Part shown: positions 12,739 to 32,884 of the stretch, one piece after another
Layout of the letters: each line of letters begins with the position of its first letter
Position numbering within the stretch: position 1 is the first letter of the stretch
Assembly: GCA_021842405.1 (NCBI GenBank)
Contig: JAKBZR010000021.1
Span: 1-41,643 of the forward strand
Origin: a bacterium
Lineage (GTDB): Bacteria; Armatimonadota; Chthonomonadetes; Chthonomonadales; JAMCWF01
Reading direction: 5' to 3'
DNA: 41,643 nucleotides
Notes under the pieces: model-generated
The model's database searches: none
What the model saw: the letters and a program-made list of their open reading frames with translations, nothing else
Told to the model about the DNA's origin: nothing
Made by a program: the position numbers and the translations under genes

Positions 12739-12894
12739 TTGCTGCGGGCCATCGGTTACGTTATGTCCAAGCTATGGATTTCGCGAATGTGGCTAGAACG
12801 TTTGTCCGAGGCAGCCTTTAAGCAGGTTAGGAAACATTGCTTGTCAATAACGGATCATGGGAACCTTCTTCATCAGTATCGGGAGGTTGATTAA
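12739..12894 (+). CDS. Possible small leader ORF coupled to the Wzz-type gene
   Basis: An open frame of 51 codons begins at a TTG (12739) after AAGGA, or of 43 codons at an ATG (12763). It ends in TAA at 12892-12894, so that stop and the next ATG overlap as TAATG. The peptide is basic and contains an amphipathic-looking stretch, LWISRMWLERLSEAAFKQV. I recognise no family. The coupling to the next gene and its position right after the candidate sigma-54 promoter support it. Its shortness and weak start keep confidence low. Confidence 0.3.
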   Translation: MLRAIGYVMSKLWISRMWLERLSEAAFKQVRKHCLSITDHGNLLHQYREVD

Positions 12895-14390
12895 TGCGAG
12901 TATACGGGTCATCGCCCCTCTATAATTACGTCGAGCTGGTTTTTCGTGCCAAGAAGCTGTTTATCATTGCGGTGGTAATAGGGGTTCTCATATCCGGCAT
13001 AATGGCATATACCCGAGCCGGTATGTACACGGGAACCGCAATTCTCTTTCTTTCTGGCTACGGGCCAACCCAATCGGGCAGTGAGCACAACTTCAGCCTG
13101 ACCTCATCTAACAATATCGCCAGCAAACTGGAAATACTAAATATTGTAACGAAGGACCCCAACTTTTGGAACAGCGTCATTCGCGACCGCGGGATTGACC
13201 AGCGCTACCCCAAGATGTCGCTGACCATGCTGCGGCAGGAGGTGCGCAAAAGCTTTTCGTTTACCCGAGATCCGGAAGGAAACCTACTCGAGATAACCTG
13301 CCGGTGGAAGGATCCGTCGGTTCTGATTGATCTCATCAACTCGTTTTACACGCTTTTCGTGAGCAAAGTGGTGAACTACGAGACCGCTTCCGATACGACT
13401 GAGCGGATGTTGCTCGAATCGAACTACCATGATTACAATAACAAGATGCAGAAGATCGAGTCGGAAAAGCGGCAATATCTCTCACAGCACTTTTGGGAGC
13501 AGCCCTCCTTTATCGGGGCAAATATCGGCAACCTACAGAGCGATTTAAGCGCGCAGCGCCAGCAGAAAGCTCAGTTAAAGATGCTTCAGAGCCGACTGAG
13601 TGTTATCAACAAGCAGCTTGCGGTGGTTCCCAAGCAAATTGACATCCAGTACGTGGAGCGCCAAAATCCACAAATTGCGGCGCTTCAAACGCAACTCACC
13701 ACCTTGCAACAGCAAAAAAATCAGTTGCTGCAAATCTACACCCCAATCAATCCTAAAGTCGAATCGGTGCAACAACAGATCAATTTCGTCCAGCAGCAGC
13801 TTAAACAGGCCGCTTCGCCCGGCCAGTCGAGTACAAACCCGTCCGAAAGGACATACCAGTATAATCCGCAGTGGCAAACATTAAAGCAGGCTCAGTCCGA
13901 TACGCTGCAGGATCTCGCTACCGTTCAAGAAAGCCTGAATAATGTCAGCGGTCAAATTGTGAAGGATCAGGCAAAGGTGAAAGCGGTTCCAATGGAAGAG
14001 AAGCAGCTTCTGAATATTGATCGCGATTACTCGTTAATTGCAAGCATCCGCAACAATTTGCGCAGCCGGATGGAGATCGCCCGGATCAACGAAAGAACCG
14101 ACCGGATTTTGCATGCGAAATCCATATCAATGGCCGTTTCACCGCAGGCGGAGCCGATCAATGCGAGAGGTAAAGCGGTACTGCTCGTACTACTGGGTCC
14201 CATTTTAGGTTTGATTATTGCATTCTGTTTTGCGTTGGGGGCTGAGGCGCTGGACCACAGCCTCAGGACGCCGGTCGAGGTGGAAAAATACCTTGGCAAG
14301 CCAGTGCTGGCGGTCATTCCTAAAATTCAATCCGAACAACCGGAGCGGAAACGGCTGCCTGGTGCAACGAAACCAAGCATCAGCTCTTGA
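12894..14390 (+). CDS. Wzz/GNVR-type polysaccharide chain-length determinant
   Basis: A 498-residue inner-membrane protein with the polysaccharide co-polymerase layout: a short cytoplasmic N-terminus, a first membrane helix at about residues 20-39 (KKLFIIAVVIGVLISGIMAY), a large periplasmic region rich in glutamine-containing coiled coil (about 170-400), and a second helix at about 428-452 followed by RTPVEVEKYLGKPVLAVIPKI. Such proteins set polymer length in Wzy-dependent export and recruit a cytoplasmic ATPase. That ATPase is encoded by the next gene, so the two halves are separate, as in CpsC/CpsD systems. GGGAGG lies 7 bases before the start. The stop of a small upstream ORF overlaps this ATG. 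Confidence 0.93.
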   Translation: MRVYGSSPLYNYVELVFRAKKLFIIAVVIGVLISGIMAYTRAGMYTGTAILFLSGYGPTQSGSEHNFSLTSSNNIASKLEILNIVTKDPNFWNSVIRDRGIDQRYPKMSLTMLRQEVRKSFSFTRDPEGNLLEITCRWKDPSVLIDLINSFYTLFVSKVVNYETASDTTERMLLESNYHDYNNKMQKIESEKRQYLSQHFWEQPSFIGANIGNLQSDLSAQRQQKAQLKMLQSRLSVINKQLAVVPKQIDIQYVERQNPQIAALQTQLTTLQQQKNQLLQIYTPINPKVESVQQQINFVQQQLKQAASPGQSSTNPSERTYQYNPQWQTLKQAQSDTLQDLATVQESLNNVSGQIVKDQAKVKAVPMEEKQLLNIDRDYSLIASIRNNLRSRMEIARINERTDRILHAKSISMAVSPQAEPINARGKAVLLVLLGPILGLIIAFCFALGAEALDHSLRTPVEVEKYLGKPVLAVIPKIQSEQPERKRLPGATKPSISS

Positions 14391-14424
14391 CCGGTCAGCG
14401 ATGTAATATCTAGTGGAGTAGAAG

Positions 14425-15159
14425 ATGTCTCAGATAGACGACATTGAAAATGAGGGCAACCTGGTCCGAATAAGCGATCTGGATGTCCACACCGTCCCAA
14501 ATGGGAAGAACGGCTTTTCTCGGAACGGGAAATGGTTGGTGCCAGAAGAATACGCCCGGCTGCATGCCGATATCGAGCAGGCATCCAGTCCGGCCCGCTG
14601 CTTCGTGGTGGGCGTTACCAGCGCTGTCTACGGAGAGGGAAAAACCACCGTCGCCCTAAATTTAGCGGGAACAATGGCGCGAAACTCATCCCAGCGGGTC
14701 GCGCTCGTGGATTTCAACTTGCGGAATTGGGATCTCCAGTCGAGACTCAATATGCCGGTTCGAACTGGATTGGTGGATATCCTGGAAGGGAGTGAAGATG
14801 ATTTGTCCGCCATTATGCAGCGAACTGACCTGGACAATCTCACCATCATACCGGCAGGCCGTGCGGCAACCAACCCAGCGCGGCTCGTAAGGTCTCAACG
14901 GCTAGGTGAGGTGATCAACACCTTGAAGCTCTCCAACGACTTTATCGTTCTAGATCTGGCTCCGGTGTTGCCAGTTGCCGACACGAAGTCAATTGCCCGG
15001 CATCTGGATGGGATCATTATGGTGGTTCGTGCTGCGGTAACACCCCGTGAGATCGTGTCGCGCGCTATTGATACGGTTGGCCGGGATAAAGTGATGGGCG
15101 TCGTATTGAACGGTGTTGTAACGTCAATGCCCAAATGGCTGCAGCGGTATTTCTCGTAA
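14425..15159 (+). CDS. CpsD/CapB-type BY-kinase-like ATPase
   Basis: A 244-residue P-loop ATPase of the bacterial tyrosine kinase type that partners Wzz-like membrane proteins. Walker A is YGEGKTT (K73). Walker A-prime is VALVDFNLRN (D96), compared with the usual DADLRRP. Walker B is IVLDLAP (D177), compared with the usual IDTPP. The three catalytic positions are kept but their surroundings are unusual. The C-terminus ends KWLQRYFS and has no tyrosine cluster, so the classic autophosphorylation tail is missing. It may act as an ATP-dependent regulator of chain length without that tail. The gene follows the Wzz-type gene by 34 bases, and its end overlaps the next gene by 25 bases. Confidence 0.88.
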   Translation: MSQIDDIENEGNLVRISDLDVHTVPNGKNGFSRNGKWLVPEEYARLHADIEQASSPARCFVVGVTSAVYGEGKTTVALNLAGTMARNSSQRVALVDFNLRNWDLQSRLNMPVRTGLVDILEGSEDDLSAIMQRTDLDNLTIIPAGRAATNPARLVRSQRLGEVINTLKLSNDFIVLDLAPVLPVADTKSIARHLDGIIMVVRAAVTPREIVSRAIDTVGRDKVMGVVLNGVVTSMPKWLQRYFS

Positions 15160-16394
15160 TCGGGTGGGAAACGCTCTATCTCGTACCTAACGTTTCCCTC
15201 TACCTCTTTTTTTTGGCCAGCAGTCTATACCTTTTGACGATTGCCGTTGCCGCCACCAGGCATCAAGCCTCACCGTCTCCTGTTACGACTCCTCGATACC
15301 GTTTTTGCTGTTTGATTCCGGCTCATAATGAAGCTCTGTTGATTAAGGAGGTAATCAAAGGCTTTATCACGGTTGAGCGCGATGGCCATCAGCTCGATAT
15401 CGTCGTCATCGCTGATAATTGCAACGATGATACGGCCATTATTGCAGAGAAAGCGGGTGCGAGGGTCATTCGCCGTCTGGATCCGAGCAGGCGCGGCAAG
15501 GGATATGCGCTGGAGTGGGCGGTAAAGCGACTTGAAAATGAAAAGGCCGGTTATGATGCCTACATCGTGATGGATGCCGATTCATTTCTCTCACCCAACT
15601 ATCTCTCGGTAATGGCGCGAGAGTTGGCTGCCGGCCATACCGTTATTCAGTGTAACTACCAGGTGCTGAATTCACTGGCATCGTGGCGCACCCGACTGAT
15701 GACCTGCGCATTAACCTTGGTGCACTATACCAAACCGTTGGGGCGATCGCGGCTCGGCTTATCGGACGGCTTGAAGGGAAATGGAATGTGCTTTACGGCC
15801 GACATTCTAAAGGAGATTCCGTGGTCAGGTAGTTCAATTACGGAGGATATTGATTACACCATTCGGCTTTGCGCAGCCGGAAAAGCGGTTGCTTTTACGC
15901 CGGATGCGTGGGTGAAGGCGCAGATGCCGGCTACGGCAATGGAATCCGCCTCACAACGCCGCCGGTGGGAGAGCGGGCGGTTTTCACTGATGGCCCGGCA
16001 CGCAATGCCGATGCTTCGAAAAGGGATCCGGGATCGAAATGGGATTTTAGTGGATCGAGCGATCGATCTGATAATCCCGCCATTCAGTGAAATGCTGGCG
16101 GCGCCTCTAATTATGGCCGTTGCGAATGCTATTTTGGGAATCTGGCTGAAAATAACGGTTGCGAAATGGATGGCGATAATTTGGGGATCGGTATTGCTGG
16201 TGCAGATTGTGTACTTGGTCATTGGATTGAAGGTTGGGAAGGTTCAGTGGCCGATATGGAGCGCGCTGCTTTTTGCTCCGATCTATGTAGTTTGGAAGTT
16301 CGCGCTGTATCTTACGATTTTCCTTTCGAAATCGGTAACCGGCTGGCAGCGCACCGAGCGACGCCCGCTTGAAACCAAAGATCCGACTTTATGA
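15135..16394 (+). CDS. Processive-type family 2 glycosyltransferase (membrane)
   Basis: A 419-residue GT-A enzyme with an N-terminal hydrophobic stretch (about 14-40) and several C-terminal membrane helices (about 315-405). Catalytic signatures are IPAHNE, D94 in VIADNCNDD, the DAD motif at 147-149, the TED motif at 236-238 and QRRRW at 274-278. The combination D, D, TED and Q..RW is typical of processive enzymes such as cellulose and hyaluronan synthases. It therefore may polymerise or extend a beta-linked chain at the membrane, although non-processive relatives exist. It lacks a PilZ domain. The start lies inside the previous gene and has no clear ribosome binding site, so translation is probably coupled. 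Substrate is unknown. Confidence 0.9.
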   Translation: MAAAVFLVIGWETLYLVPNVSLYLFFLASSLYLLTIAVAATRHQASPSPVTTPRYRFCCLIPAHNEALLIKEVIKGFITVERDGHQLDIVVIADNCNDDTAIIAEKAGARVIRRLDPSRRGKGYALEWAVKRLENEKAGYDAYIVMDADSFLSPNYLSVMARELAAGHTVIQCNYQVLNSLASWRTRLMTCALTLVHYTKPLGRSRLGLSDGLKGNGMCFTADILKEIPWSGSSITEDIDYTIRLCAAGKAVAFTPDAWVKAQMPATAMESASQRRRWESGRFSLMARHAMPMLRKGIRDRNGILVDRAIDLIIPPFSEMLAAPLIMAVANAILGIWLKITVAKWMAIIWGSVLLVQIVYLVIGLKVGKVQWPIWSALLFAPIYVVWKFALYLTIFLSKSVTGWQRTERRPLETKDPTL

Positions 16395-16457
16395 GGATGC
16401 ACGCTCATTCCGGATCATCGAGATGGACGATATTCCGCTGTGGATTAAGATTCTGAA

Positions 16458-17858
16458 ATGAGAAATACGGTTGCGATATTAGGAGTACCGATTGACGATT
16501 TAACGTTGGATGAGACCTTAGGTCGCATTCGAGAGTTTATCCAATCGGGTCGGTTTCATCAGGTGGCGACCGCCAACACCGATTTTCTGGTGAGGGCGAT
16601 GGCGGATGATGGACTACGACTGATACTCCGGCAAGCCGATATGGTGTTGGCCGACGGGATGCCGGTGGTGTGGGCCTCCCGATTGATGGGGACTCCTCTG
16701 CGCGGGCGGGTAACCGGATCCGATCTGGTGCCGCGTCTGGCCACAATCAGCGCAGCGGCGGGCTATCGGATATTTATGCTTGGCGCGCGACCGGAGGTTG
16801 CACAGGCGGCCAAATATCGTTTGGAGAAGGATAATCCGGGTATCTTGATCGTCGGTTGTCTATCGCCGCCGTTAGCAGGGCCGCTGGAGATGAACAATAC
16901 CGAGATATTGGCGGCAGTTGAAGCGGCGCACCCCGATATCCTATTGGTAGCCTTTGGGAATCCTAAGCAGGAGAAATGGATTTGGATGCACCGAGATCGG
17001 TTGAAGGTGCCGGTTTGCATCGGGGTGGGCGGCACTTTTGATTTTATAGCGGGAGCTTCCCGAAGGGCGCCGGCGTGGATGCAAAGGAGCGGATTCGAGT
17101 GGCTTCACCGCTTGATCCAAAACCCTGCTCGACTCTGGCGCCGATACGGTACCGACATCGTGAAATTCACGCTGTTTCTGGCCAATCAGATGGCTGCCAT
17201 TCAGCGGCCGAGAAGCCGGCAAGAGGATCGAGTGATTTGCACAAAAATCGAGAATTTCTGCTTGATCTCCCTGGTGGGAAGGTTGTCGGGTGCCAGCCTG
17301 GAAAAGATCAGGTCGGAATGCGATCAAGCGATCAATGATGGGCTGGAGGTTGTTTTCGATTTTCATCAGGCTGATGGGCTCGATTGCTCCGCTTTCGGCA
17401 CTTTAATCAATTTAAATAAGCGAGCCTCATTTAAAGGCAAAACGATACGGCTCGTCGGGGGTCATCGTGCTTTCAACCGGATGCTGCGGCTGTTCCAGGC
17501 CGACCAGCTCTTTGAGAGGTATCCTACGCTGGCGGAGGCCTTAGCCGATGGCGAAAGATCGGCAGCCGGTATAACCGTTGACCAATACGATGAACGCTTA
17601 GTCGTTCGTTTGAGTTGGAGGCGAGGGGGAGATGTGCTTAATGATCTGAGGCGTACGTTGGCCTCGCTTCCGCCGAAAGTGCATGAAGTCATCGTAAATA
17701 TGGAGGAGCTTCATTTTACTGATATTGGTTTGTTGGGCGCGGTTCGTGAGGCATCGGTTCGTAACGGTGTGCGGATTCGCCTTCAGCCCAGTCAAGAAAT
17801 TAGAGGAGAGCTTCAGCGAACTGGGCAGGAACATCTTTTCGATATTCTTACCGCCTGA
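16458..17858 (+). CDS. WecG/TagA/CpsF glycosyltransferase fused to two STAS domains
   Basis: A 466-residue fusion. Residues 1-245 are a GT26 (WecG/TagA/CpsF) transferase, with TANTDFLVRAM, LADGMPVVWASR, GVGGTFDFIAGASRRAP and the WLHRLIQNPARLWRRY tail. Such enzymes add N-acetylmannosaminuronate, N-acetylmannosamine or similar sugars to a lipid carrier. Residues about 260-365 and 372-466 each resemble STAS domains of anti-sigma-factor antagonists. The first has D309-C-S311 where SpoIIAA has DSSG, so the phosphorylatable serine is kept. The second has TDIGLLG with G424 at that position, so it cannot be phosphorylated there. STAS domains normally bind serine kinase or sensor partners, which suggests regulated activity or localisation. 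None of those partners is encoded nearby. The fused architecture is unusual. Confidence 0.9.
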   Translation: MRNTVAILGVPIDDLTLDETLGRIREFIQSGRFHQVATANTDFLVRAMADDGLRLILRQADMVLADGMPVVWASRLMGTPLRGRVTGSDLVPRLATISAAAGYRIFMLGARPEVAQAAKYRLEKDNPGILIVGCLSPPLAGPLEMNNTEILAAVEAAHPDILLVAFGNPKQEKWIWMHRDRLKVPVCIGVGGTFDFIAGASRRAPAWMQRSGFEWLHRLIQNPARLWRRYGTDIVKFTLFLANQMAAIQRPRSRQEDRVICTKIENFCLISLVGRLSGASLEKIRSECDQAINDGLEVVFDFHQADGLDCSAFGTLINLNKRASFKGKTIRLVGGHRAFNRMLRLFQADQLFERYPTLAEALADGERSAAGITVDQYDERLVVRLSWRRGGDVLNDLRRTLASLPPKVHEVIVNMEELHFTDIGLLGAVREASVRNGVRIRLQPSQEIRGELQRTGQEHLFDILTA

Positions 17859-17879
17859 TCGGTTACAGGAGATCACGAT

Positions 17880-18017
17880 ATGAGGTTTGAACTACCGGTC
17901 CTATTTGGTTTGGTCGCTGCCGGCCTTTTTATTAAGCGCTGGGAGACCAAGCATCATATTGCTTTAATGGTATTCATCGCACTGTGGATCGCCTTCAGCT
18001 ACTGGAAGGGGCATTGA
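17880..18017 (+). CDS. Small membrane peptide (45 residues)
   Basis: An open frame with a strong ribosome binding site, AGGAG 8 bases before the ATG. It encodes a 45-residue peptide with two hydrophobic segments (about 5-18, LPVLFGLVAAGLFI, and 27-41, IALMVFIALWIAFSY) joined by the charged turn KRWETKHH. Its TGA overlaps the ATG of the acyltransferase as TGATG, showing translational coupling. I recognise no family. Position suggests a small membrane subunit of the polysaccharide machinery, perhaps anchoring the transferase or acyltransferase. Confidence 0.65.
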   Translation: MRFELPVLFGLVAAGLFIKRWETKHHIALMVFIALWIAFSYWKGH

Positions 18018-18637
18018 TGGGCGTGCCATGGATCGGAAAATCGGTACCCAGCGCGGTTGATCTTTCACACCGACCGATAAAGCGGTGGGGGAGCGTCTTG
18101 TTGGAAGATTTGGAGGGTCTGCACCCGCGCTTGCGGCTGTTGGCGCTGATTGAAATATTACTCCCGCATTTTGCCTTCAACCGGTTAAGGACCTCAATGT
18201 ACCGAATGGCTGGTTTTCGTATCGGCAGGGGAACGATGGTGCTTGGGCATCTGGAATGCAGCGGGCAGGGGCGGATATGGGAAAAGCTGGTCGTCGGCGA
18301 GCGATGTCAGTTGACATCTCCCCTCTATCTGGATTTGATGGACCGCGTGACGATTGGAGATGACGTGGCGGTTGCCCACCATGTCAAACTGATCACTACC
18401 AACCATCAAATAGGACCAGCTCATCACCGGTGCGGAGCGATGCAGTGTACGCCGATCGTTATCGAAAACGGTGTTTGGATTGGAGCGGCGGCGATCATAT
18501 TGCCCGGAGTAACGGTTGGGGCCGGCTCGGTGGTGGCGGCGGGAGCGGTTGTAACGAAGGCTGTTGAGCCGAACACATTGGTTGGCGGTGTGCCGGCACG
18601 CCTGATACGGCAGTTGCCTACCGAGAGTTCAGTTTAG
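18017..18637 (+). CDS. Hexapeptide-repeat O-acetyltransferase
   Basis: A 206-residue left-handed beta-helix acyltransferase of the WcaF/NodL/LacA group. Hexapeptide turns are visible as VTIGDDVAVAHHV, IENGVWIGAAAIILPGVTVGAGSVVAAGAVVTKAV, with the closing EPNTLVGGVPARLIRQL. The conserved catalytic histidine is probably in the TTNHQIG stretch. These enzymes acetylate sugars in polysaccharides with acetyl-CoA. The start is placed at 18017, overlapping the stop of the small membrane peptide gene, rather than at 17984 inside it. Acetylation of the polymer repeat unit is the probable job here. Confidence 0.9.
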   Translation: MGVPWIGKSVPSAVDLSHRPIKRWGSVLLEDLEGLHPRLRLLALIEILLPHFAFNRLRTSMYRMAGFRIGRGTMVLGHLECSGQGRIWEKLVVGERCQLTSPLYLDLMDRVTIGDDVAVAHHVKLITTNHQIGPAHHRCGAMQCTPIVIENGVWIGAAAIILPGVTVGAGSVVAAGAVVTKAVEPNTLVGGVPARLIRQLPTESSV

Positions 18638-18672
18638 CATTGATGTAACCTGTGATTGAAGTGTAAAGGTTA

Positions 18673-20868
18673 ATGAGTAAGTCATCCTCTTCATCCATCG
18701 GAATGCACACCGGCTTGAAAATAGCAGCCGTCGCGTTTTTACTGGCGCTTTCAAGCTGCGGGCGGTTGATAAATGCGGCTCAACGGGAGATTCGGGTCGT
18801 TTCACACCCACCAGTGGCGAGCTCTGATCTGGTCATATACAACGGCAATCTGGCAGCGGGATGGGCGGACTGGTCTTGGGCGCCGCATAATTTTCACAGC
18901 AGGTCGGAGCTATTCGGCGGTCAACCTTGCTTGGAGATGACACCTGGACACTATCAGGGTCTCTACTTTCACCGGAATCCCTTTTCAATTAATGGGTACA
19001 CCGGCGTTGTGTTTTACATCAATGGAGGAATTACCGGAGGGCAGGCATTAAACATTGCGGCGGTGGATGCGAATAAGAAGGTGCTTCGGCAAGTCGCTCT
19101 TGCTCAATTTATAACCGATGGGAAAGTGCCGAAGAACAAATGGGCCTTTGTATATGTGCCGTTTAGCCGCTTAATAAAGCCCGGCTCTGAAATATCTGGA
19201 TTGGTGATCCAAGAGGCGGCCGGCTTAAATCAGCCCCCGGTCTACTTTGCCGATATTCGGGTATTGGGGACAAAGTTACCGGTCCGAAAGTCCTATTTGA
19301 TTGATATTAATACGACCAAGGATCGCCACTGGATCAACCCTTACATCTATGGCATGGCAAATGCATCCACTCAAATGATGCGGCAACTTCATATCACCGT
19401 AAATCGGTGGGGAGGCAACCCGAGCACCACCTATAACTGGGTGAAAGGGAACTGCTGGAATGCGGGCAGAGATTGGTATTTTCGCAACGGGGACTATGGG
19501 CATACCTCGCCGAAAGACCGCCTCCCCTCTGGCGTTGCCGATCAGTTCGTGTCAGCCAACAAAGCGAATGGGGTCGCTTCACTCATAACGATTCCTACCA
19601 TCGGCTACGTTGCACGCAACGACAATAACGGCACCGAATCGGTTGGAGTGCCTTCACAAGGCGGTGCTCCGATCGCCCCTGGATCGGAGGCAATAGCTGG
19701 TTACAATCCAGCCATCAATCAGCAAAGGGTGTATGTGAGGTCTTTTGCGCGGAAACCGGGCGCGCTCCAATATCCTCCTTCGCCGAACACACATGCCGTC
19801 TATCAAGATGAATGGGTTTATCATCTGGTGAAAAAGTTTGGTGATGCGGCACATGGTGGCGTCAAGTTTTACGCGATGGATAATGAGCCGGATTTGTGGG
19901 ACAGCGAGCATACCGATATTCATCCGGTGCGGATGAGCTATGATGAGATGCTGGCGAATTTTTTGGAGTATGCCACTGCGGTGAAATCAGTTGATCCTAC
20001 TGCAATGGTAACCGGGCCGGTGCTCTCCGGCTGGACCGCTTACTGGTACTCTTCCCGTGATCGAGGCAACGATAACTTCAGGACGCAGGCGGATCGAAAA
20101 GCGCACGGAGGGGTTCCATTCTTAAAGTGGTGGCTGGGGCAGGTTCATCGCCATGACATCCGAACCGGAAAACGGACGCTGGATGTGCTGGATATCCACT
20201 ACTATCCTCAGGAGAACGGTGTGTATGCCGGCCGCACCGATCCTCAAACCGATGCGCTTCGGATCCGCAGTACCCGCAGTTTGTGGGACCCTACCTATAT
20301 TGATGAGTCGTGGATCAACGATGATGTAGATTTGATTCCCAGAATGAAGAGGTGGATCGCGGAGGAATATCCAGGAACGAAATTGGGGATTACGGAGTGG
20401 AATTGGGGAGCGGACGGCACGATGAACGGAGCGCTGGCAATTGCCGAAGTGCTGGGCATCTTGGGACGTGAAGGCGTCTACCTTGCGAACTATTGGACCT
20501 CTCCAGGAATGGGGTCGCCCGGCGCCTACGCCTTTAAAATGTATCGTAACGTGGATGGAAACGGCAAGGGATTCGGGAACCTCTCCGTATTTGCCCATTC
20601 CAGCGCACCGGGCGATATATCTTGTTTTGCCAGTATTGATAGCAAAACAAAGGAGTTAGTGGCGATCATCATTAATACACGGCCTGACGTGTCCATCAAA
20701 ACTTCGCTGAGGATCGCCGGCGGAGTCTATCATAGGGTAAGTATTTATCGGTATAGTTCCGATCATTTAGGGGGGATACAACAGCTTCCTTCCAAGTCAG
20801 TAAACGGACCGATGAGCGTGTGGATATTTCCTCCCTATTCGATTACAATGCTGCGATTCAGGTCTTGA
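18673..20868 (+). CDS. Glycoside hydrolase family 44-like lipoprotein
   Basis: A 731-residue secreted protein. The N-terminus is a lipoprotein signal (GLKIAAVAFLLALSSC, lipobox LSSC). A beta-sandwich-like region precedes the catalytic barrel, which begins near residue 210. GH44 signatures are visible: NRWGGNPSTTYNW, NAGRDWYFRNGDY, the acid/base E405 in MDNEPDLWDSE and the nucleophile E575 in GITEWNWGADGTMNGA. GH44 enzymes cut beta-1,4-linked glucans, xyloglucan or related chains. A lipid-anchored glycanase inside a polysaccharide operon probably trims or edits the polymer, as the GH8 enzyme BcsZ does in cellulose operons. That comparison is inference. The gene follows the acyltransferase by 35 bases. 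Confidence 0.88.
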   Translation: MSKSSSSSIGMHTGLKIAAVAFLLALSSCGRLINAAQREIRVVSHPPVASSDLVIYNGNLAAGWADWSWAPHNFHSRSELFGGQPCLEMTPGHYQGLYFHRNPFSINGYTGVVFYINGGITGGQALNIAAVDANKKVLRQVALAQFITDGKVPKNKWAFVYVPFSRLIKPGSEISGLVIQEAAGLNQPPVYFADIRVLGTKLPVRKSYLIDINTTKDRHWINPYIYGMANASTQMMRQLHITVNRWGGNPSTTYNWVKGNCWNAGRDWYFRNGDYGHTSPKDRLPSGVADQFVSANKANGVASLITIPTIGYVARNDNNGTESVGVPSQGGAPIAPGSEAIAGYNPAINQQRVYVRSFARKPGALQYPPSPNTHAVYQDEWVYHLVKKFGDAAHGGVKFYAMDNEPDLWDSEHTDIHPVRMSYDEMLANFLEYATAVKSVDPTAMVTGPVLSGWTAYWYSSRDRGNDNFRTQADRKAHGGVPFLKWWLGQVHRHDIRTGKRTLDVLDIHYYPQENGVYAGRTDPQTDALRIRSTRSLWDPTYIDESWINDDVDLIPRMKRWIAEEYPGTKLGITEWNWGADGTMNGALAIAEVLGILGREGVYLANYWTSPGMGSPGAYAFKMYRNVDGNGKGFGNLSVFAHSSAPGDISCFASIDSKTKELVAIIINTRPDVSIKTSLRIAGGVYHRVSIYRYSSDHLGGIQQLPSKSVNGPMSVWIFPPYSITMLRFRS

Positions 20869-20889
20869 GACAAGGAGTGAATTCGTCTG

Positions 20890-22437
20890 ATGGTTGATTT
20901 TTCACCTTCAGTTCAAGATATAGTTTCCCGCCAAAAAGCACAGCGATTTCTGCTGTTTTGGATTTTTGTCGCCACCTGCTGCGTCGTCTTTTTTGTGTCT
21001 GGCGCCGTCATGCATTGGACCACGCTGGGCGGGCCGATGGCGGCGTTGTTGGCGTTATCCGCATTCATCATATTTGCCATTCCAGTGATCATCTGGAACT
21101 GGCCAATCGCCGGCCTATATATCTTGATTGCAGGAGCCGCCATTATAGATAATGCGGTACCCACCCAACCTCCGATTATCACCGGTTGGATCCCCCTTTA
21201 CTTGAATATCGCCAATGCGATTGGGTTTTTTGCCCACACCCATCCGATAGGCGGCATCAAGGCGACACCGGCCGAGCTGATCATGGGTTGGACGTTCCTT
21301 TGCTGGCTGGTTCGCAGTATTGTTCACCGCGATTTAAAGTTCGAGCCGGGAATGTTCTATATTTGGATTATTTTTTGGATTTTGAATGTTTTCCGGGCAT
21401 TCTTGTATGGATTAGTAACAGGAGGCCAATTTTTAACGGCCTTATGGGAAATTCGGGCGGAATGTTATTTCGTGGCGGCCTATTTTATGGCATCCAACCT
21501 CATCACCGATCGTCGTCAGCTTAAGGTTTTACTGTGGATATCGGTGTTGGGGATCGGGTTGATGGGGATATTGGGTACCGCGAAATATATCAGATATGGC
21601 CCTTCCGTCAGTCATCAAGGGATAATGAGCCATGAGGACAGCCTCTTTTTCAACATTATTTTCTTGGTTGTACTGGTGCTAGGATTGGCTAAAACGGAAC
21701 CATGGATACTATTTGCGGCGCTGGCATTAATGCCGACCGCATTAATAGCCGATTTGGAAAACCACCGCCGGGCTGGAATTGCTGCCTTTGCGGTGGCCGT
21801 GATTCCGGTGTTGATGATGCTGGCGGTGTCCCTAAAAAAGCGGAGGAGATCGGTTATCACTTTCATCATCGGATTCGCGGTGTTTTCGATCTTTTATCTG
21901 GTTGCATTTTGGAACGCACCCGGCGCTCTGGCGATGCCGGCGCGCGCCTTTCGGTCGAAATATGGCAGTCCTAGCTCACGGGATGTCATGTCCGATAACT
22001 ACCGCTTAGCTGAAAACGCTAATTTGAACTTTACCCGCAATTTAAATTTGTGGTGGGGGTACGGGTATGGGAAACCTTATGCAACGCCGAATCCTATGCC
22101 ATACATACCGGATCCGCTTCAGCTCATTATTCCCCATAATGGAATACTTTGGATGTGGATGCGGTTGGGAACGGTTGGATTCTATTGTTTTTGGATGATG
22201 ATCGCCTTGGCCCTGGTGCGGGGGGCATCCACAATACGAGATATGGATGATCCGCTGGTTCAGAGTTTTGGGATAATATGTATTGCAATGATATTGATGC
22301 TGATCATCTACGGTCAGTACGATACCCAGTTTGCCGTTTACCGAAGTATGTACTATAGCGGAGCACTATTAGGGGTATTGGCGGTTTTGGGTAAGCTTAA
22401 GAAACCGCAGGAGCCTGAGGTGGAATCGGCAGGATAG
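20890..22437 (+). CDS. Wzy/O-antigen ligase-like membrane protein
   Basis: A 515-residue protein with about ten or more hydrophobic segments. The layout, with helices in pairs and a long loop between about 345 and 410 (APGALAMPARAFRSKYGSPSS to IPHNGILWMWMRLG), matches O-antigen polymerases and ligases of the Wzy_C type. The conserved H-N-G motif in that loop (IPHNGI) is typical. Its role would be polymerisation of repeat units on the outer face of the inner membrane, together with the Wzz-type protein. AAGGAGTG lies 9 bases before the ATG. Polymerase and ligase cannot be told apart from sequence, but a Wzz-type partner in the same operon favours polymerase. Confidence 0.85.
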   Translation: MVDFSPSVQDIVSRQKAQRFLLFWIFVATCCVVFFVSGAVMHWTTLGGPMAALLALSAFIIFAIPVIIWNWPIAGLYILIAGAAIIDNAVPTQPPIITGWIPLYLNIANAIGFFAHTHPIGGIKATPAELIMGWTFLCWLVRSIVHRDLKFEPGMFYIWIIFWILNVFRAFLYGLVTGGQFLTALWEIRAECYFVAAYFMASNLITDRRQLKVLLWISVLGIGLMGILGTAKYIRYGPSVSHQGIMSHEDSLFFNIIFLVVLVLGLAKTEPWILFAALALMPTALIADLENHRRAGIAAFAVAVIPVLMMLAVSLKKRRRSVITFIIGFAVFSIFYLVAFWNAPGALAMPARAFRSKYGSPSSRDVMSDNYRLAENANLNFTRNLNLWWGYGYGKPYATPNPMPYIPDPLQLIIPHNGILWMWMRLGTVGFYCFWMMIALALVRGASTIRDMDDPLVQSFGIICIAMILMLIIYGQYDTQFAVYRSMYYSGALLGVLAVLGKLKKPQEPEVESAG

Positions 22438-22445
22438 CGACGGTG

Positions 22446-23423
22446 ATGCGAAGAGCAGTTGACGATAAGGTTTTTCAAACTGAGGAAAAGACGCCCGTAT
22501 CCAGTGAGAAGGCTTGTCCTCTGATATCCGTAATCATCGCAACCAGAAATCGCGAGAGTGACCTTATTTATTGTCTAACTAATATTGCAAAGCAGTCATA
22601 TAATCATTATGAGGTTATCGTTGTTGATCAAAGTGAGGATAAAGAATCCATCGAGAGGGTGAGCAAAACACTAGGAGGGCCGCCTTGGCTGATCGCAATA
22701 AATTCCGAAGTAATTGGTAAGAGCAACGCCCTCAATTACGCATTCATGCGCTCAAAAGGTGAATTGCTTGCGTTTACCGATGATGATTGTGTGGTGCCGC
22801 CAAGTTGGTTGAGCCAAATCAGCGATATTTTTACGAATGGATCTGAGGTGGACATCGTAGTTGGACCGGTACATGCCGGAAAAAATATAGGGAATGGCAG
22901 CAGCGCGCTGTACACACCTTGCACCTATTTCAGCGAGCGCCGATACGTTAGTCTGGGTGAGCAGGCGGGGATGGGCGCAAATTTTGCGATGCGGCGCCGG
23001 TTTTTTGATTTATCGGGCGGATTTGATGTATTGTTGGGACCAGGTGCGCCGTTTTACGCAGCGGAAGAGGGAGATCTGGTGTATCGCTGTCAATTATTGG
23101 GCGCAAAAGTTTTACGCGATCCATCTATAACCGTAGTTCACCAGGCATGGAGAAATCGGAGCCAATGGGGGCAGGTGCTTTACGCTTACGGGGTGGGTGA
23201 CGCCGCGTTTTGGATGAAGCACTTCCGCAGCGGTGATATGAGGATGGGGCTTCGATCGCTGAAACACATAATGTATATTTTCGCTAGATTATTATGGCGC
23301 ATAATGTGCAATAAGCCGCATCAAGAAGAATATTATTTGCATGGATATTGGAATGGGTATAAATCGAGTCTCAAATATCATGTATATAAAAGAAATCGTT
23401 TATATGTATCCAAGAATGCTTGA
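22446..23423 (+). CDS. Family 2 glycosyltransferase
   Basis: A 325-residue GT-A transferase. It contains PLISVIIATRNRESDL, DQSED for nucleotide-sugar binding and the metal-binding TDDDCVVPPSWL. A later GGFDVLLGPGAPFYAAEEGDLVYRC supplies the acidic acceptor-side residues. It probably adds one sugar to the lipid-linked repeat unit in the cytoplasm. ATG at 22446 is preferred over the GTG three bases upstream. The C-terminal part, after about 23240, becomes noticeably AT-rich and leads into the AT-rich next gene. No membrane helix is evident, but a hydrophobic stretch near the C-terminus may touch the membrane. Confidence 0.9.
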   Translation: MRRAVDDKVFQTEEKTPVSSEKACPLISVIIATRNRESDLIYCLTNIAKQSYNHYEVIVVDQSEDKESIERVSKTLGGPPWLIAINSEVIGKSNALNYAFMRSKGELLAFTDDDCVVPPSWLSQISDIFTNGSEVDIVVGPVHAGKNIGNGSSALYTPCTYFSERRYVSLGEQAGMGANFAMRRRFFDLSGGFDVLLGPGAPFYAAEEGDLVYRCQLLGAKVLRDPSITVVHQAWRNRSQWGQVLYAYGVGDAAFWMKHFRSGDMRMGLRSLKHIMYIFARLLWRIMCNKPHQEEYYLHGYWNGYKSSLKYHVYKRNRLYVSKNA

Positions 23424-23464
23424 CATTCGTCAAATTATTGAATTATTGATGTAGGTGAATTTTA

Positions 23465-24868
23465 ATGGATCGCATCAAGAGTCTTAAACCATATTTTAAA
23501 ATATCTGATATGAACTCAAGGCAAAAAGTAATTATAATTGGGTCATACTGCCTCAGCTCGATCATAATTTTATACTTCATGTTGGCGCGAGGGCCTTATG
23601 ATTATAACAGTTATTTAGTCGCCGGATGGGCATTGCGGGAAGGCGAGCCTAGCGCTATATACTCCAGTATAGACACGCCGAATTCGAACGGAAACTATTA
23701 TATTATAAATAATAATAAGTCTTGGCAAAGTATTGTAGACAGGGATTTAAAGAAGAATACGAGCGTGCCCGCATATCTCTATCCGCCGCCTTGCGCGGTC
23801 TTGTTTATATCATTTACTTACATAAATAGGATAATCGGGATACTGGCTTGGCGATTTCTATGCTTGATTGCATATATGTTAGGTATTATTTTATTGCTAT
23901 CGTTGCTCCAAATAAATATTAATAAAGTTGTCTTTCATATCTTATTTGTATTAACGATAATATCGCCGCCTATTCTTTTCGCTTTAGATTTGGGGCAGCT
24001 TACACCGTTGATATTTTTGTCCATTGCAGGAGGATTATGGTTTATTTCTAATGATTATCAAAACGAATCTGGAATCTGCCTTGCAATTGGCACAGTGCTT
24101 AAAATTACACCGATTATATTCATGCCTTGGCTAATTGCCAGAAAAAAATACAAGGCAATAAAAAGTTATTGCATTTCAATATTGCTAATTGGTTTAATAA
24201 CCATCCCTATAACCGGATTTAATTTAAATTTAGATTATATTCATCATGTGATACCAATCTTGTCCCGTGGTGTAAATATGCGCAGTAATGTATCATTCGA
24301 ATCGATATTGGCAAATAAATTACATATCGGTGATCCGATAAAAGGTGAAATATTGCCAAACAATCATGAATTATATATTTTAAAGAATATTTTCTATGCA
24401 ATAATCGTCCTCGTTACCGTTACGGTATTGATATACGGCTGGAAAATCGTTAGTTTCCTTAGTCTAATAAATGAATACAGCTTAATCAATGTCGTAGCTT
24501 TACTGCTGTCGCCGATTACTTGGGGGCATCATTTAATGCTTGTTTGGGTATCAATTATTCCGCTGTTATGTGTATTTAATATAAAAGATAATAAATATCT
24601 ATTGGCATCCACTATTTTGAGCTATATTTTAATTATCCAAGATCAAGGCTTGCCTGGCACATTATTCAATAACAATATGGGAACGATACTGTCTTTTGTT
24701 GGTCTTTTAATACTGTGGATTGTAATGTTAATAGTTGTATGGATGCCGAGACGAAACCTTAAGTCGCGATTATCATCGCAATTATCCTTTCACGGCAAGG
24801 AAGGGACATATCAACCTTTAGATTATCGGTCATCATCCCAACCTATAATCGGCGGAAAGGTCTACTAG
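23465..24868 (+). CDS. GT87-like polyprenol-phosphate glycosyltransferase (AT-rich)
   Basis: A 467-residue protein with about ten hydrophobic segments. An early GPYDYNSYLVAGWALREGEPSAIYS matches the N-terminal pattern of DUF2029/GT87 enzymes (D..Y..A......G...Y), and a second YLYPPPCAVLFI fits the YPP motif. Relatives transfer mannose or other sugars from polyprenyl phosphate on the outer face of the membrane. The gene is far more AT-rich than its neighbours, with long runs of ATT, ATA and AAT codons, suggesting recent transfer. AGGTG lies before the ATG. The C-terminal 25 or so codons overlap, in another frame, the start of a decayed GT2 gene, so the natural end may have been altered. Confidence 0.75.
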   Translation: MDRIKSLKPYFKISDMNSRQKVIIIGSYCLSSIIILYFMLARGPYDYNSYLVAGWALREGEPSAIYSSIDTPNSNGNYYIINNNKSWQSIVDRDLKKNTSVPAYLYPPPCAVLFISFTYINRIIGILAWRFLCLIAYMLGIILLLSLLQININKVVFHILFVLTIISPPILFALDLGQLTPLIFLSIAGGLWFISNDYQNESGICLAIGTVLKITPIIFMPWLIARKKYKAIKSYCISILLIGLITIPITGFNLNLDYIHHVIPILSRGVNMRSNVSFESILANKLHIGDPIKGEILPNNHELYILKNIFYAIIVLVTVTVLIYGWKIVSFLSLINEYSLINVVALLLSPITWGHHLMLVWVSIIPLLCVFNIKDNKYLLASTILSYILIIQDQGLPGTLFNNNMGTILSFVGLLILWIVMLIVVWMPRRNLKSRLSSQLSFHGKEGTYQPLDYRSSSQPIIGGKVY

Positions 24869-25995: not shown

Positions 25996-26045
25996 TTTCC
26001 CTTCCTATCGTTGAAATGATATCTAAATTAGGTACGCCGAACGAT

Positions 26046-26939
26046 CTATTTTATAAGCGGCGGAGCTTTACCATTGGAGCCGACCAGTCTAAAAATAGCC
26101 TTGACGGCAGGCTTCACATCTTCCCGGATTTTACACGGGCATCGGGCAAGATCTATGGTGTCGCGCTCTCCTTTTCCGATCTCATCCACCGCCTTGCGCA
26201 GCGCGCGGATGTAGACGGCGCGGATCTCCGCATCAATATTGAGCTTTGTAATGCCAGCCTCCACCGCTTGCTTCACCGTATCCTCCGGCACTCCACTGCC
26301 GCCGTGCAGTGCCAGCGGTATTCCGATCGCCTCCGCAATTTCACGAATGCGCGGTACATCCACCAGTGCGATCGGCATCGAGCATCCGTGAATGCTGCCC
26401 ACTGCCGGCGCCAGGATATCAATTCCGGTCTCCTGCACGAATTGAACGGCCGTAGCTGCATCGGTCAGATGGCGGGCTATTTCGATTCGTGCCTCGTCCA
26501 CGTTTTTGAAATCACCGATAAATCCGATAATTCCAAGCTCCGCCTCCACCGAAGCCCCATAGGGGCGAGCCATCTTCACCACCCGGCGGGTCATTTCCAC
26601 GTTATCTTTGAATGGCAATGCGGAGCCGTCATACATCACCGAGGTAAACCCGTGATCCAGCGCGCCCTGGATCAAGTTGATATCGGTGGCATGATCGAGA
26701 TGGATCGAGACGGGGATTGGCACCTCCTCGGCAAGACTGCGGATCGCCGACACCAGCAGCTTGAACCCCCACGATACGATCACCTCGGACCAGAGCTGCA
26801 GGATAACGGGAGCACTTTCTTCACTGGCCGCCTCAATCACAAGTTGAATTTGATCAATGCTGTAAGGTTCAAACCCAACGACCGCGTAGTGGTTCTTTCG
26901 GGCATGTTGCAACATCGCTGCAGTGTTTATAAGTGGCAA
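26046..26939 (-). CDS. Class II fructose-bisphosphate or tagatose-type aldolase
   Basis: A 297-residue metal-dependent aldolase. Zinc ligands are H83 in HLDHATD, H184 in SIHGC and H212 in LHGGSGVP. D82 is the catalytic aspartate, and the phosphate-binding stretch GGSG...NIDAEIR is intact. The loop DGSALPFKDN differs from the usual DGSHLPFEEN at one position. Family members cleave fructose 1,6-bisphosphate or tagatose 1,6-bisphosphate. Similarity is close to both kinds, so I give no symbol. The start is a TTG at 26939 with GGAGG 7 bases upstream. It lies 12 bases after the esterase-like gene and about 50 bases before sucD, so the three probably form one operon. Confidence 0.9.
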   Translation of the reverse strand: MPLINTAAMLQHARKNHYAVVGFEPYSIDQIQLVIEAASEESAPVILQLWSEVIVSWGFKLLVSAIRSLAEEVPIPVSIHLDHATDINLIQGALDHGFTSVMYDGSALPFKDNVEMTRRVVKMARPYGASVEAELGIIGFIGDFKNVDEARIEIARHLTDAATAVQFVQETGIDILAPAVGSIHGCSMPIALVDVPRIREIAEAIGIPLALHGGSGVPEDTVKQAVEAGITKLNIDAEIRAVYIRALRKAVDEIGKGERDTIDLARCPCKIREDVKPAVKAIFRLVGSNGKAPPLIK

Positions 26940-26951
26940 ATCCGATCCTCC

Positions 26952-28850
26952 TCAGTTTACAAAGCTTAATCGTGCCGCCGAATTAATTGTGAGCGGTTTT
27001 TGACTGATTAATAGACGATTCGAACAATTTATGTCCTTGTAATGTTTGCGAACGAGGCGCCATTCACCCGGATTGCACTGGTAGAGGTGCAGCGGCTTTG
27101 GTGACAGCAGTAACGCCGCCATTTTCAAATCCCCAAATCTCAGGATGCCGGGCACAAACAGCCGATCCTGATACGACTTCTCATTACGAACCTTAAAAAA
27201 CTCCATATCTACCGCCAAGCTGCGTACCCTCTCAGAAACGATCGCAGCGGCCAACAAAACCAGGGCGCCGGTGCCGCCAATTCCAATGAGATCAACCGGG
27301 CGGTGAACCCTTCGTGAGAGCCCTTCGATCGCATTCGTGATCACTGTTACGTGGCGGATCGTCTGGGTTCGGTTATAGGTGGTGAAAAATACATCCTGCT
27401 CGTCCTTATCAGTATCGCACAAACCAACCGGTAGCAGTAACCGCTTCGGCGCAATGATCTCGGGATCCTTTAAATCTAGCGCTAAATCTCCTTCCGGATA
27501 GACCAGCATCAGGCTGTTTGGGCAGGCGTCATGAGAAATTTTGCCCGTTTCGAAATACCCACCTACAAACCGCTCCCCGTCCCACGCTTTAATGGGGCCG
27601 CTATTCTTCCCGGCAGGCAGTTCGCACATCCAATCATGGTAACGATATGCGAAAAGATGCTGGAAAGCGGTCCTATATAAGCGCTTGGCCTTATTATCCA
27701 GCGGGGTATCACTGCCGATTGGGCTCGGTAAGCCCTTGCTGATCGCTATTTTCAACGATCGTTTCAATTTTACGGCCGAAAGGGGGTGTTTTCCGATGAA
27801 ATTTTGTTTGGTACATTGCAATTTCCCGACTGGCTCGATGCAATGAGGCATTTCCGCCGCGTCATCGTTCTCAATTCCTTGCAGCCAACGTTGAAACCAG
27901 CGATAAGCCGCCATTCGGCTCACATGGTTGTAGTTGTGCTCATAGTTGAATTGGAGCCAGTCGAACTTCTCTTCCGCACCCAGTAACTGGTAAATTTTCT
28001 GAATGGCAGGTCCCTCGATAACCGGCGTATTGCATGTCCAGTCTCCGGTTGCAGCGATGAGTCGCATCGGCTTCGGTGCAAAAAGAGCTGCGATTTCGAC
28101 GTTGCTGGTATCCAGCCTTAATCCAGGCGCATTCTCACAAATGCAGCCCCCTTGCATATGCGCTGACACCATATTTACCGGCACCATCGCTTGAATGCGC
28201 TCATCAACGGCAGCCAACATCAGCGATTGAGATGCTCCTCCAGAAGCCCCGGTCAGCCCAATCCGGGAAGAATCCACCTCCGGCCTCGATGAGAGATAGT
28301 CCAGCACTCGCTGGCTGTTCCAGGTTTGAAACCCCATTAAACTAACGCCCCAAAGCTGGTCGCCGGCATCAATTTCAAGGCGATGTGGCATCTGGCTAGA
28401 GTCGTTGTAGCCAACCATATCGTAGAGCAGCGCCACAAAGCCCAGCCGTGCAAAATTGGCACCGATTGCGAGATGGCTGCATCCGCCGGCGGCCGGGGGA
28501 TGTCCCGGTGCAGCCTCTGCGACATCGGGGTCATCCTGGAGCCGACCCAGCGGCCAGTGACCGTGCGGGATTAAGATGGCGGGATGAGGATGGGATGTGT
28601 CTTGTGGCAAATAGAGATTGGCCCCAATAAAGAACCGGGGCCAAGTCTCAACGAGTATGTTTTCAATAGAGTAATCCACCTGCTCGATTCGATCTATGAC
28701 TCGAACGGGTGGAATCATCACATTGGCTTGGGCAGGCCATAATCCCAGACTCACTCGAATCTGCTCGATCAGGTATTTACGCCGGATTTGCCAATTGCCA
28801 CTCGAATCGGGAAGTTCAGGTTCAAAGGGGGTATCGAGCGATCTGGTCAA
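26952..28850 (-). CDS. Alpha/beta hydrolase, acetyl xylan esterase-like, long
   Basis: A 632-residue protein. Residues about 85-340 form an alpha/beta hydrolase with the nucleophile S203 in the elbow GASGGASQS, a DWTCNT stretch that may supply the acid, and a late HNYNHVSR that may supply the histidine. Similar proteins are called acetyl xylan esterases. No signal peptide is visible, so it is probably cytoplasmic. The C-terminal half (about 380-632) looks like a second, degenerate hydrolase-type domain with GIGGTGALVLLAAAIV. The start is a TTG at 28850 with a weak ribosome binding site, and no ATG or GTG lies between the preceding in-frame stop and it. The gene leads into the aldolase. Substrate unknown. 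Confidence 0.75.
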   Translation of the reverse strand: MTRSLDTPFEPELPDSSGNWQIRRKYLIEQIRVSLGLWPAQANVMIPPVRVIDRIEQVDYSIENILVETWPRFFIGANLYLPQDTSHPHPAILIPHGHWPLGRLQDDPDVAEAAPGHPPAAGGCSHLAIGANFARLGFVALLYDMVGYNDSSQMPHRLEIDAGDQLWGVSLMGFQTWNSQRVLDYLSSRPEVDSSRIGLTGASGGASQSLMLAAVDERIQAMVPVNMVSAHMQGGCICENAPGLRLDTSNVEIAALFAPKPMRLIAATGDWTCNTPVIEGPAIQKIYQLLGAEEKFDWLQFNYEHNYNHVSRMAAYRWFQRWLQGIENDDAAEMPHCIEPVGKLQCTKQNFIGKHPLSAVKLKRSLKIAISKGLPSPIGSDTPLDNKAKRLYRTAFQHLFAYRYHDWMCELPAGKNSGPIKAWDGERFVGGYFETGKISHDACPNSLMLVYPEGDLALDLKDPEIIAPKRLLLPVGLCDTDKDEQDVFFTTYNRTQTIRHVTVITNAIEGLSRRVHRPVDLIGIGGTGALVLLAAAIVSERVRSLAVDMEFFKVRNEKSYQDRLFVPGILRFGDLKMAALLLSPKPLHLYQCNPGEWRLVRKHYKDINCSNRLLISQKPLTINSAARLSFVN

Positions 28851-31441: not shown

Positions 31442-31807
31442 TGTTAACCTCCCGCCACGCGCCCTACCACCACTGGCCTATTTTGCCTCCATTCGATACC
31501 AGTTAAGGGCTGCAGCAGCATTCTCTTCATATTTCCAGCTTGGTTTAGAAACGCAACTTGCTCCGGACATCCAACCAGAACACCCCCTCAATCTAAACGC
31601 TGTACTCAATCAGTGCAGGAATGGACTATTCACTTCCCAGCACAACCTGCATCCACCGAAATTATCGGGAACCACCGCATATCTGCTTAATAAATTGTAG
31701 CGAGCAACCGATTATAATTGCTTTGCCTTAGTACCTGCTGCCGATCATATTGACTTGGACTAATCTCATGCTACCTCAAAACATCTCTATTTACTACCAA
31801 AATCAAC
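31442..31807. other. Intergenic region between mcsB and clpC
   Basis: 366 bases. On the minus strand there is a TATAAT hexamer near 31710 without a good -35 box. I see neither a CIRCE palindrome nor the tandem CtsR-type heptads that usually govern clpC. A 28-codon open frame ends 2 bases before the clpC start, but its ribosome binding site is weak. Regulation of clpC here seems to differ from the Firmicutes pattern. Confidence 0.5.
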
Positions 31808-32884
31808 TCAAGCACCTTGAATTCGGATTGCCGTCGTTTGTGCCCACTTTCGTATCGATTCTAACTGTGTCCTATCATCTAAAGCTACGATTCTGTGATG
31901 CTTTTTATTTCTCATAGTTATCCCCGAAGTAACGATCGCGAACAGATGATCGCATTCGGTTAAATCACCCGCTACAAGCCTTGCCGCAACGGCCCACCGG
32001 TAGCTCGATAGATAGGATGCCGCCTCGATCAAATTCACACCATTCCCACTGATCTGTTCCACCGCCCGTAACGCCTCCTCCTTCAATGCGGCCTGTTTGA
32101 CCGGGCTGCTTAAGATCATTTCCCGAGCCTTCTGCTCCTGTGCGATCATATAACCGAGTGCCGATTCGATGCGAGCCACGATCTCTTGCTCGTCTGAGCC
32201 GGCGCTGCTCCGGTTTGATATCTGGTAAATACCGCCAATCGCCCCGCTGCCCTCACCGTAAACGCCGCGTACTGAGCATCCCACCACCTGTGCGGCCATC
32301 ATCGCATCGCTTAATCGTTTCGTTGAAGCCAACCCCGGTAGGTGAATCATCGCGCTAACCCGAATCCCAGCTCCGGCATTGGAAGGCGACGCGGTTAAAT
32401 AGCCGTAGTCTCTATCCCAAGCTAACTGCATATTCCGGGCCAATTCATCGGTGAAACGCTTCGCCCGCTGAACAGCCAACCCGATTTGCAGTCCGGGTAG
32501 TATGGCCTGCACCCGATAGTGATCCTCTTCATTGATCAATAGTGAAAGGCTGCCATCGCTTGAAATCAACAAAAAGGAGCCGCTCCGGTTGAAATCCATC
32601 TGTGGGGGTAGCAGCCGATGCTCGATATAGGTCTTACAGCCCCGTTCATCCAGCGATGCGATCTCGACTGCCTGACCCCCTCGAAAAAAATCGGATTCTT
32701 GAAAGTAGGCAATCACTTCGCTGGCCAAAGCGTTGCGCTGCTCATCATTCAGGCGATGCGGAAATGGAGTGCCGACGTGATTGCGGGCGACGCGGCACCG
32801 CGTCGAGATGACGATCTCTTGGTGGGGATGACATCCCGATTCGAATGAGCTACACGCGGCAAGCTCTTTGTTCAGTATCGTCAG
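31808..32884 (-). CDS. mcsB: Protein arginine kinase McsB (non-canonical start)
   Basis: A phosphagen-kinase-like protein arginine kinase that marks substrates for ClpCP. Residues conserved in the family run through the whole frame: EIVISTRCRVARN (nucleotide binding), PFPHRLND, a central SSDGSLSLLINEEDHYRVQ and the late SAMIHLPGL and VRGVYGEGSGAIGGIYQISN. The first stretch lies upstream of the only TTG (32728), so translation must start earlier. In that frame, back to a TAA at 32900-32902, there is no ATG, GTG or TTG. A CTG at 32884, 5 bases after GAGGA, or a CTG at 32875, gives 358 or 355 residues, the usual length. A sequencing indel or frameshift is possible. The gene overlaps mcsA. Confidence 0.88.
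   Translation of the reverse strand: MTILNKELAACSSFESGCHPHQEIVISTRCRVARNHVGTPFPHRLNDEQRNALASEVIAYFQESDFFRGGQAVEIASLDERGCKTYIEHRLLPPQMDFNRSGSFLLISSDGSLSLLINEEDHYRVQAILPGLQIGLAVQRAKRFTDELARNMQLAWDRDYGYLTASPSNAGAGIRVSAMIHLPGLASTKRLSDAMMAAQVVGCSVRGVYGEGSGAIGGIYQISNRSSAGSDEQEIVARIESALGYMIAQEQKAREMILSSPVKQAALKEEALRAVEQISGNGVNLIEAASYLSSYRWAVAARLVAGDLTECDHLFAIVTSGITMRNKKHHRIVALDDRTQLESIRKWAQTTAIRIQGA

Follow-up and report, generated by a model that had tools for sequence, protein, structure and literature searches.

Partner switching is known chiefly as a means of controlling sigma factors. In SypA/SypE of Vibrio fischeri and HmpV/HmpU/HmpW of Nostoc, a STAS protein that is under the control of a serine kinase and phosphatase governs polysaccharide-dependent traits (PMC10120452, PMC8256260). 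The STAS protein SpoIIAA is phosphorylated at Ser57 in B. sphaericus and at Ser58 in B. subtilis (PMC3517971), and SypA, per its mutagenesis primers, carries the sequence D-S56-S57-G, with the acceptor S56 directly after the aspartate (PMC10120452). Anabaena all4160, mentioned in a review, is a glycosyltransferase with an N-terminal STAS domain whose gene is grouped with those for heterocyst envelope polysaccharide (PMC8256260, PMC4390870), so there is precedent for joining a STAS domain to a polysaccharide transferase.

Among glycosyltransferases of family GT26, TagA has the catalytic residues Asp65, Thr37, and Arg221 and a C-terminal appendage with two roles, membrane binding and completion of the active site (PMC6493773). 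The activity of TagA is governed by a dimer-monomer and membrane equilibrium that involves this C-terminal end of the protein (PMC6493773). Here we describe a protein which combines a GT26 enzyme with a pair of STAS domains, found in a 41,643-nucleotide contig (JAKBZR010000021.1, hereafter the window) of a Chthonomonadales bacterium (Armatimonadota).

Results

A single open reading frame on the plus strand of the window (16458..17858) encodes a protein of 466 aa, which had originally been predicted from its sequence to be a WecG-type glycosyltransferase fused to two STAS domains. The fusion of a GT26 enzyme to two STAS folds is genuine, as Pfam, AlphaFold, Foldseek, and hhalign all bear out. 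The catalytic domain spans residues 60-230 (16635..17147, plus strand), and the protein scored above the cut-off for both GT26 models, PF03808 (E 2.7e-63, 213 bits against a cut-off of 27.4) and TIGR00696 (154 bits against 69). Foldseek matched the enzyme part to TagA, and alignment to the TagA structure 7mpk placed D66, T38, and R225 at TagA D65, T37, and R221; this catalytic Asp, catalytic Thr, and appendage Arg are invariant across 40 relatives. The likeness to TagA/TarA and WecG thus covers the catalytic fold, these residues, and the C-terminal appendage, which occupies about residues 199-250 (17052..17207, plus strand) and ends in a long helix (residues 223-248), as judged from the TagA alignment, the secondary structure of the model, and the role described for TagA (PMC6493773). 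TagA stops after the appendage, whereas the window protein continues with two STAS domains; given this correspondence, the STAS pair lies directly behind the appendage that in TagA serves the active site and the membrane.

STAS repeat 1 (residues 262-361; 17241..17540, plus strand) was retrieved by PF01740 (E 2.4e-14, 53 bits against a cut-off of 22.6). STAS repeat 2 (about residues 372-466; 17571..17855, plus strand) is degenerate and falls under the Pfam threshold, and its assignment comes from profile-profile comparison with repeat 1 (hhalign probability 99.7) and from the model; in relatives, the second STAS stretch does score in Pfam. The AlphaFold model (mean pLDDT 90.9, pTM 0.90) contains the STAS order of strands and helices twice, with both repeats confidently modelled, and Foldseek matched the STAS part to TM1442, SpoIIAA, and RsbV. 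The structural prediction, proposed originally as a check that could have overturned the STAS assignment, therefore upholds it for both C-terminal parts.

Genes on the plus strand at 12894-24868 form a Wzy-type exopolysaccharide locus, in which the fusion gene stands between a GT2 glycosyltransferase gene and an acetyltransferase gene. Upstream are genes for a PCP/Wzz-like polysaccharide chain-length determinant (12894..14390; TIGR03007 E 2.4e-32, under the equivalog cut-off), a BY-kinase-like ATPase of CpsD/Wzc type (14425..15159; TIGR01007, PF13614), and the EpsU-like GT2 glycosyltransferase (15135..16394; PF13641, and NF041865 with E 1.1e-91, under the equivalog cut-off). Downstream are genes for the hexapeptide acetyltransferase (17984..18637; PF00132), an EpsB-like GH44 glycoside hydrolase (18673..20868; PF12891 E 9.7e-63, and NF041873 with E 3.1e-120, under the cut-off), a Wzy-like O-antigen ligase/polymerase (20890..22437; Wzy_C, PF04932), a second GT2 glycosyltransferase (22443..23423; PF00535), and a GT87 glycosyltransferase (23465..24868; PF09594), all on the plus strand. 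The same gene order recurs in several Chthonomonadales genomes. The presence of EpsU-like and EpsB-like genes beside a GT26 enzyme resembles the Myxococcus-type EpsA, EpsU, and EpsB set, but the window matches all of these far under the equivalog cut-offs, with the GT26 protein reaching 181.5 bits against the 500 bits of the EpsA equivalog NF041872. The EpsA model spans 265 positions, leaving no room for a STAS domain behind the GT26 part, whereas the window protein carries two.

Elsewhere in the window, a gene for a ClpC-like ATPase adjoins one for an ATP:guanido phosphotransferase-like protein (31808-32728) in an McsB-ClpC-like arrangement (28964-32728). A long frame at 26016-26969 that yielded no family match overlaps, on the opposite strand, the minus-strand gene for a class II fructose-bisphosphate aldolase (26046-26939) and is most likely a spurious ORF.

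The original prediction placed the SpoIIAA phosphorylation site at S311 of repeat 1 and at G424 of repeat 2, and proposed that serine phosphorylation could switch sugar transfer. In repeat 1 the relevant residues are D309-C310-S311 (17382..17390, plus strand) and in repeat 2 D422-I423-G424 (17721..17729, plus strand). C310 aligns with chain position 57 of 1h4x and 1h4y (counted from the printed alignment), and S311 is the counterpart of the supporting residue Ser57 of SypA, the neighbour of the acceptor. Since the acceptor serine of SpoIIAA and SypA comes directly after the conserved aspartate, the equivalent positions in the window protein, as the structure alignment, SypA, and the relatives agree for repeat 1 and the alignment of relatives for repeat 2, are C310 and I423, one residue before those proposed. 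With Cys310 and Ile423 at the acceptor positions, neither repeat can be phosphorylated there on a hydroxyl group. The STAS fold and the aspartate ahead of the acceptor position are shared with SpoIIAA and RsbV, but the window STAS domains are fused to an enzyme, have no Ser or Thr right after that aspartate, and score under the cut-offs of TIGR00377 (39.9 against 53.45) and TIGR02886 (28.3 against 114.75). S311 itself varies within the same order, being A, G, Q, E, or H in relatives. Phosphorylation of S311 was rejected on the alignment register and this lack of conservation.

The asked-for search for GT26-STAS fusions across genomes returned them from four phyla. In a scan of bacterial and archaeal genomes, one or more STAS regions followed the GT26 part in nearly all of the best 80 loci. 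The architecture is present in Chthonomonadales (Armatimonadota), Chloroflexota, and Verrucomicrobiota, usually with two repeats, and in Acidobacteriota with one degenerate repeat; no relatives were found in viral contigs. Family-strength matches occurred in 18 of the 291 Armatimonadota genomes, 16 of them in the window's order. A GT26-domain tree built by a quick method set the fused proteins apart from the unfused Armatimonadota sequences used and placed the window protein with Chthonomonadales, adjoining Acidobacteriota. As the unfused sequences in this tree came from Armatimonadota alone, that the fusion arose only once is likely rather than proven. The architecture had been put forward as one not known as described, and we likewise found no description of GT26-STAS proteins in the open-access literature that we searched, but the window protein is not unique.

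Across these groups, the aspartate of repeat 1 (D309) was present in 40/40 aligned proteins. The residue after it was Ser in 18/18 Chloroflexota and 13/13 Verrucomicrobiota proteins but in only 3/9 from Chthonomonadales, an order in which Cys, Ala, and Gly are seen as well. At the acceptor position of repeat 2, Ser was found in 17/18 Chloroflexota proteins (with the Asp mostly lost), 13/13 from Verrucomicrobiota, and 1/9 from Chthonomonadales. None of the 22 Acidobacteriota proteins has the Asp or the acceptor Ser (Ser 0/22). As judged from these alignments, the phospho-site is mostly or wholly lost in Chthonomonadales and Acidobacteriota. An acceptor Ser is also common among STAS domains that are not known to be phosphorylated.

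The loss of the acceptor Ser from both repeats, together with the sub-threshold Pfam score of repeat 2, raises the possibility that the STAS pair in the window's lineage is a functionless, decaying remnant. The within-group ratio of pairwise identity in the two STAS repeats to that in the GT part was 0.48 and 0.33 in Chthonomonadales, the lowest of three groups (0.62 and 0.57 in Chloroflexota, 0.56 and 0.57 in Verrucomicrobiota), which fits a relaxed constraint on the STAS pair. Against decay, the pair is kept without frameshift in most fusion-bearing Chthonomonadales genomes, D309, G314, L316, L319, R322, and A323 are still invariant in that order, and the model is confident across both repeats; we regard a functionless remnant as rather unlikely.

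The usual gene order in Chloroflexota is EpsU-like GT2, sugar-phosphate transferase, GT26-STAS-STAS, a nucleotidyltransferase/sugar-transferase fusion, a solo STAS protein, a GAF-SpoIIE phosphatase, and an RsbW-like kinase, followed in most loci by a receiver gene. The RsbW-like genes escaped a simple kinase motif search, and the counts come from sequence searches. Among the 24 Chloroflexota loci with at least 6 kb of downstream sequence, 20 had a complete STAS-SpoIIE-RsbW module downstream, on the same strand and at near-constant spacing, so that kinase, phosphatase, and a STAS protein with the acceptor Ser are encoded in one locus. Over the same downstream length, the module was found in none of the control loci (0/10 Chthonomonadales, 0/21 Acidobacteriota), nor was one found near a single-STAS fusion from another Armatimonadota family. 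In two Viridilinea loci (L107 and L111) an RsbW-like kinase gene lies downstream of the GT26-STAS-STAS gene, with solo STAS and SpoIIE genes undetected nearby; these are natural cases in which to ask whether the fused repeats are the substrate of the kinase. Two other Chloroflexota loci (L078 and L079) had no module component downstream; close relatives of the kinase lie elsewhere in the L078 genome, the one of this pair that was checked.

The nucleotidyltransferase/sugar-transferase fusion, in which a nucleotidyltransferase, a hexapeptide region, and a bacterial sugar-transferase domain (PF02397) form one protein (L055:9493-11121 and its Chloroflexota equivalents), immediately follows GT26-STAS in almost every Chloroflexota locus. 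One Armatimonadota genome has a comparable gene behind its single-STAS fusion (L134:7482-9080).

In Verrucomicrobiota an adjacent module was seen in only 1/17 loci (L090), where it consists of an upstream solo STAS protein, a fused RsbW-SpoIIE protein, and a receiver. The fused protein (L090:5481-7283) carries the RsbW-like kinase domain and the SpoIIE phosphatase domain in one chain, and other Verrucomicrobiota genomes also contain frames of 595-656 aa that score high for PF13581. Because a single-protein kinase probe was too weak for this phylum (it missed the L090 kinase), PF13581 was chosen for the genome-level comparison. The matches fall into two score classes, with scores above 60 bits in 10/12 fusion-bearing Verrucomicrobiota genomes versus 2/12 fusion-bearing Chthonomonadales genomes, in both of which the matches lie within frames of at least 866 aa. 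The contrast gives a Fisher p of 0.003, a significance that is overstated because the calculation ignores shared ancestry and the lineages are not independent data points.

These neighbourhoods also bear on the possibility that the STAS pair is a static element for dimerisation or membrane seating, with the Chloroflexota switch genes controlling a sigma factor or operon expression through the solo STAS protein only. The solo STAS protein is present in most modules, the pTM of the window model suggests a fixed domain arrangement, and the dimer-monomer and membrane equilibrium of TagA involves exactly this end of the protein (PMC6493773). A static role leaves unaccounted for the acceptor Ser that every Chloroflexota protein keeps in its fused repeat (18/18) and the two loci with a kinase alone beside the GT-STAS gene, and we consider it doubtful.

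The original prediction also called for RsbW/SpoIIAB-like kinases to be sought in the window's genome, and none were detected. Neither PF13581 nor the kinase probe found an RsbW-like kinase in this genome, which is 97% complete, and the absence is firm to that extent; all PF13581 matches lie in histidine kinases. No SpoIIE-type phosphatase was found in the same 97%-complete genome. Two SpoIIE-family matches were set aside since, as read from their sequences, they look like eukaryotic-type PP2C proteins; one of the two genes adjoins a Hanks-type kinase gene. The genome also encodes a stand-alone STAS protein with an intact D-S-A-G site (L129:5284-5670, on G000:C81), with no kinase or phosphatase gene adjacent to it.

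Could a stress kinase of the window organism nevertheless phosphorylate S311 and so switch sugar transfer? The STAS fold of repeat 1 is authentic, S311 adjoins the acceptor position, and a Hanks-type kinase and PP2C genes are at hand. Yet S311 is not the acceptor position, it varies even within the order, and the RsbW-like kinase and SpoIIE-type phosphatase went undetected, making such a switch highly improbable. The combination originally named as telling against the idea, no kinase partner and no conservation of S311, is what we found in the window's lineage, but it does not hold family-wide once the correct residue is used. Similarly, the proposal of a link between the enzyme and partner switching through the STAS pair finds support in relatives (acceptor Ser in 18/18 and module in 20/24 in Chloroflexota) but not in the window protein, where the acceptor is lost and no kinase was found.

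Discussion

We favor, by a modest margin of confidence, a model in which the family consists of GT26 enzymes with a STAS docking pair, partner-switched in Chloroflexota and probably Verrucomicrobiota, and phospho-independent in the window's lineage. Within a Wzy-type exopolysaccharide pathway, the gene product would serve as the GT26 glycosyltransferase, probably adding the second sugar onto an undecaprenyl-diphosphate-linked sugar. The STAS pair, attached behind the helical appendage, would act as a protein-docking module for a presumptive partner. In Chloroflexota, and probably Verrucomicrobiota, an RsbW-type kinase would bind the STAS repeats and phosphorylate the Ser that follows the conserved Asp, the phosphate would be taken off again by a SpoIIE-type phosphatase, and the bound or free state of the STAS domains may alter transferase activity or membrane recruitment. 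Sequence and model establish the domains and folds, the operon, where the Ser is kept or lost, and the switch genes that adjoin the fusion in relatives; we infer the action of the kinase on the GT-STAS protein, the direction of this control, the docking partner, and the sugar. The window's lineage would have lost the kinase along with the acceptor residues and kept the pair, under weaker constraint, as a phosphorylation-independent docking part. For the window protein, such docking and decay are both plausible, and the data separate the two poorly.

Relatives give strong indirect support to the STAS pair as a putative link between the enzyme and partner switching. Several points tell against the favored model: in most Chloroflexota loci the solo STAS protein could be the only kinase substrate, with the GT-STAS protein a bystander; the acceptor Ser is common also among STAS domains that are not known to be phosphorylated; the adjacent module is scarce in Verrucomicrobiota; and the lineages compared are not independent. 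We hold it to be an even call whether GT26-STAS-STAS proteins are a direct covalent output of Rsb-type switching, in place of a sigma factor, with Chthonomonadales and Acidobacteriota having since dropped the phospho-control.

Within the literature searched, what appears new is the link between GT26-STAS proteins and a complete partner-switching module encoded next to them. In SypA and HmpV the STAS domain is a separate protein, whereas here it is part of the glycosyltransferase. The STAS domain of all4160 is N-terminal as cited, unlike the C-terminal pair of the window protein, and the passages cited describe no link of all4160 to a kinase.

The direct STAS target of SypA and HmpV is still sought, and the GT26-STAS family points to a transferase as a possible direct target. 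The fusion, with kinase and phosphatase genes adjacent in Chloroflexota, makes this question testable with purified proteins. The comparisons suggest that the building of sugar chains may be directly switchable by stress-type signalling, and the family shows how the link to a switch can be lost while the fusion persists.
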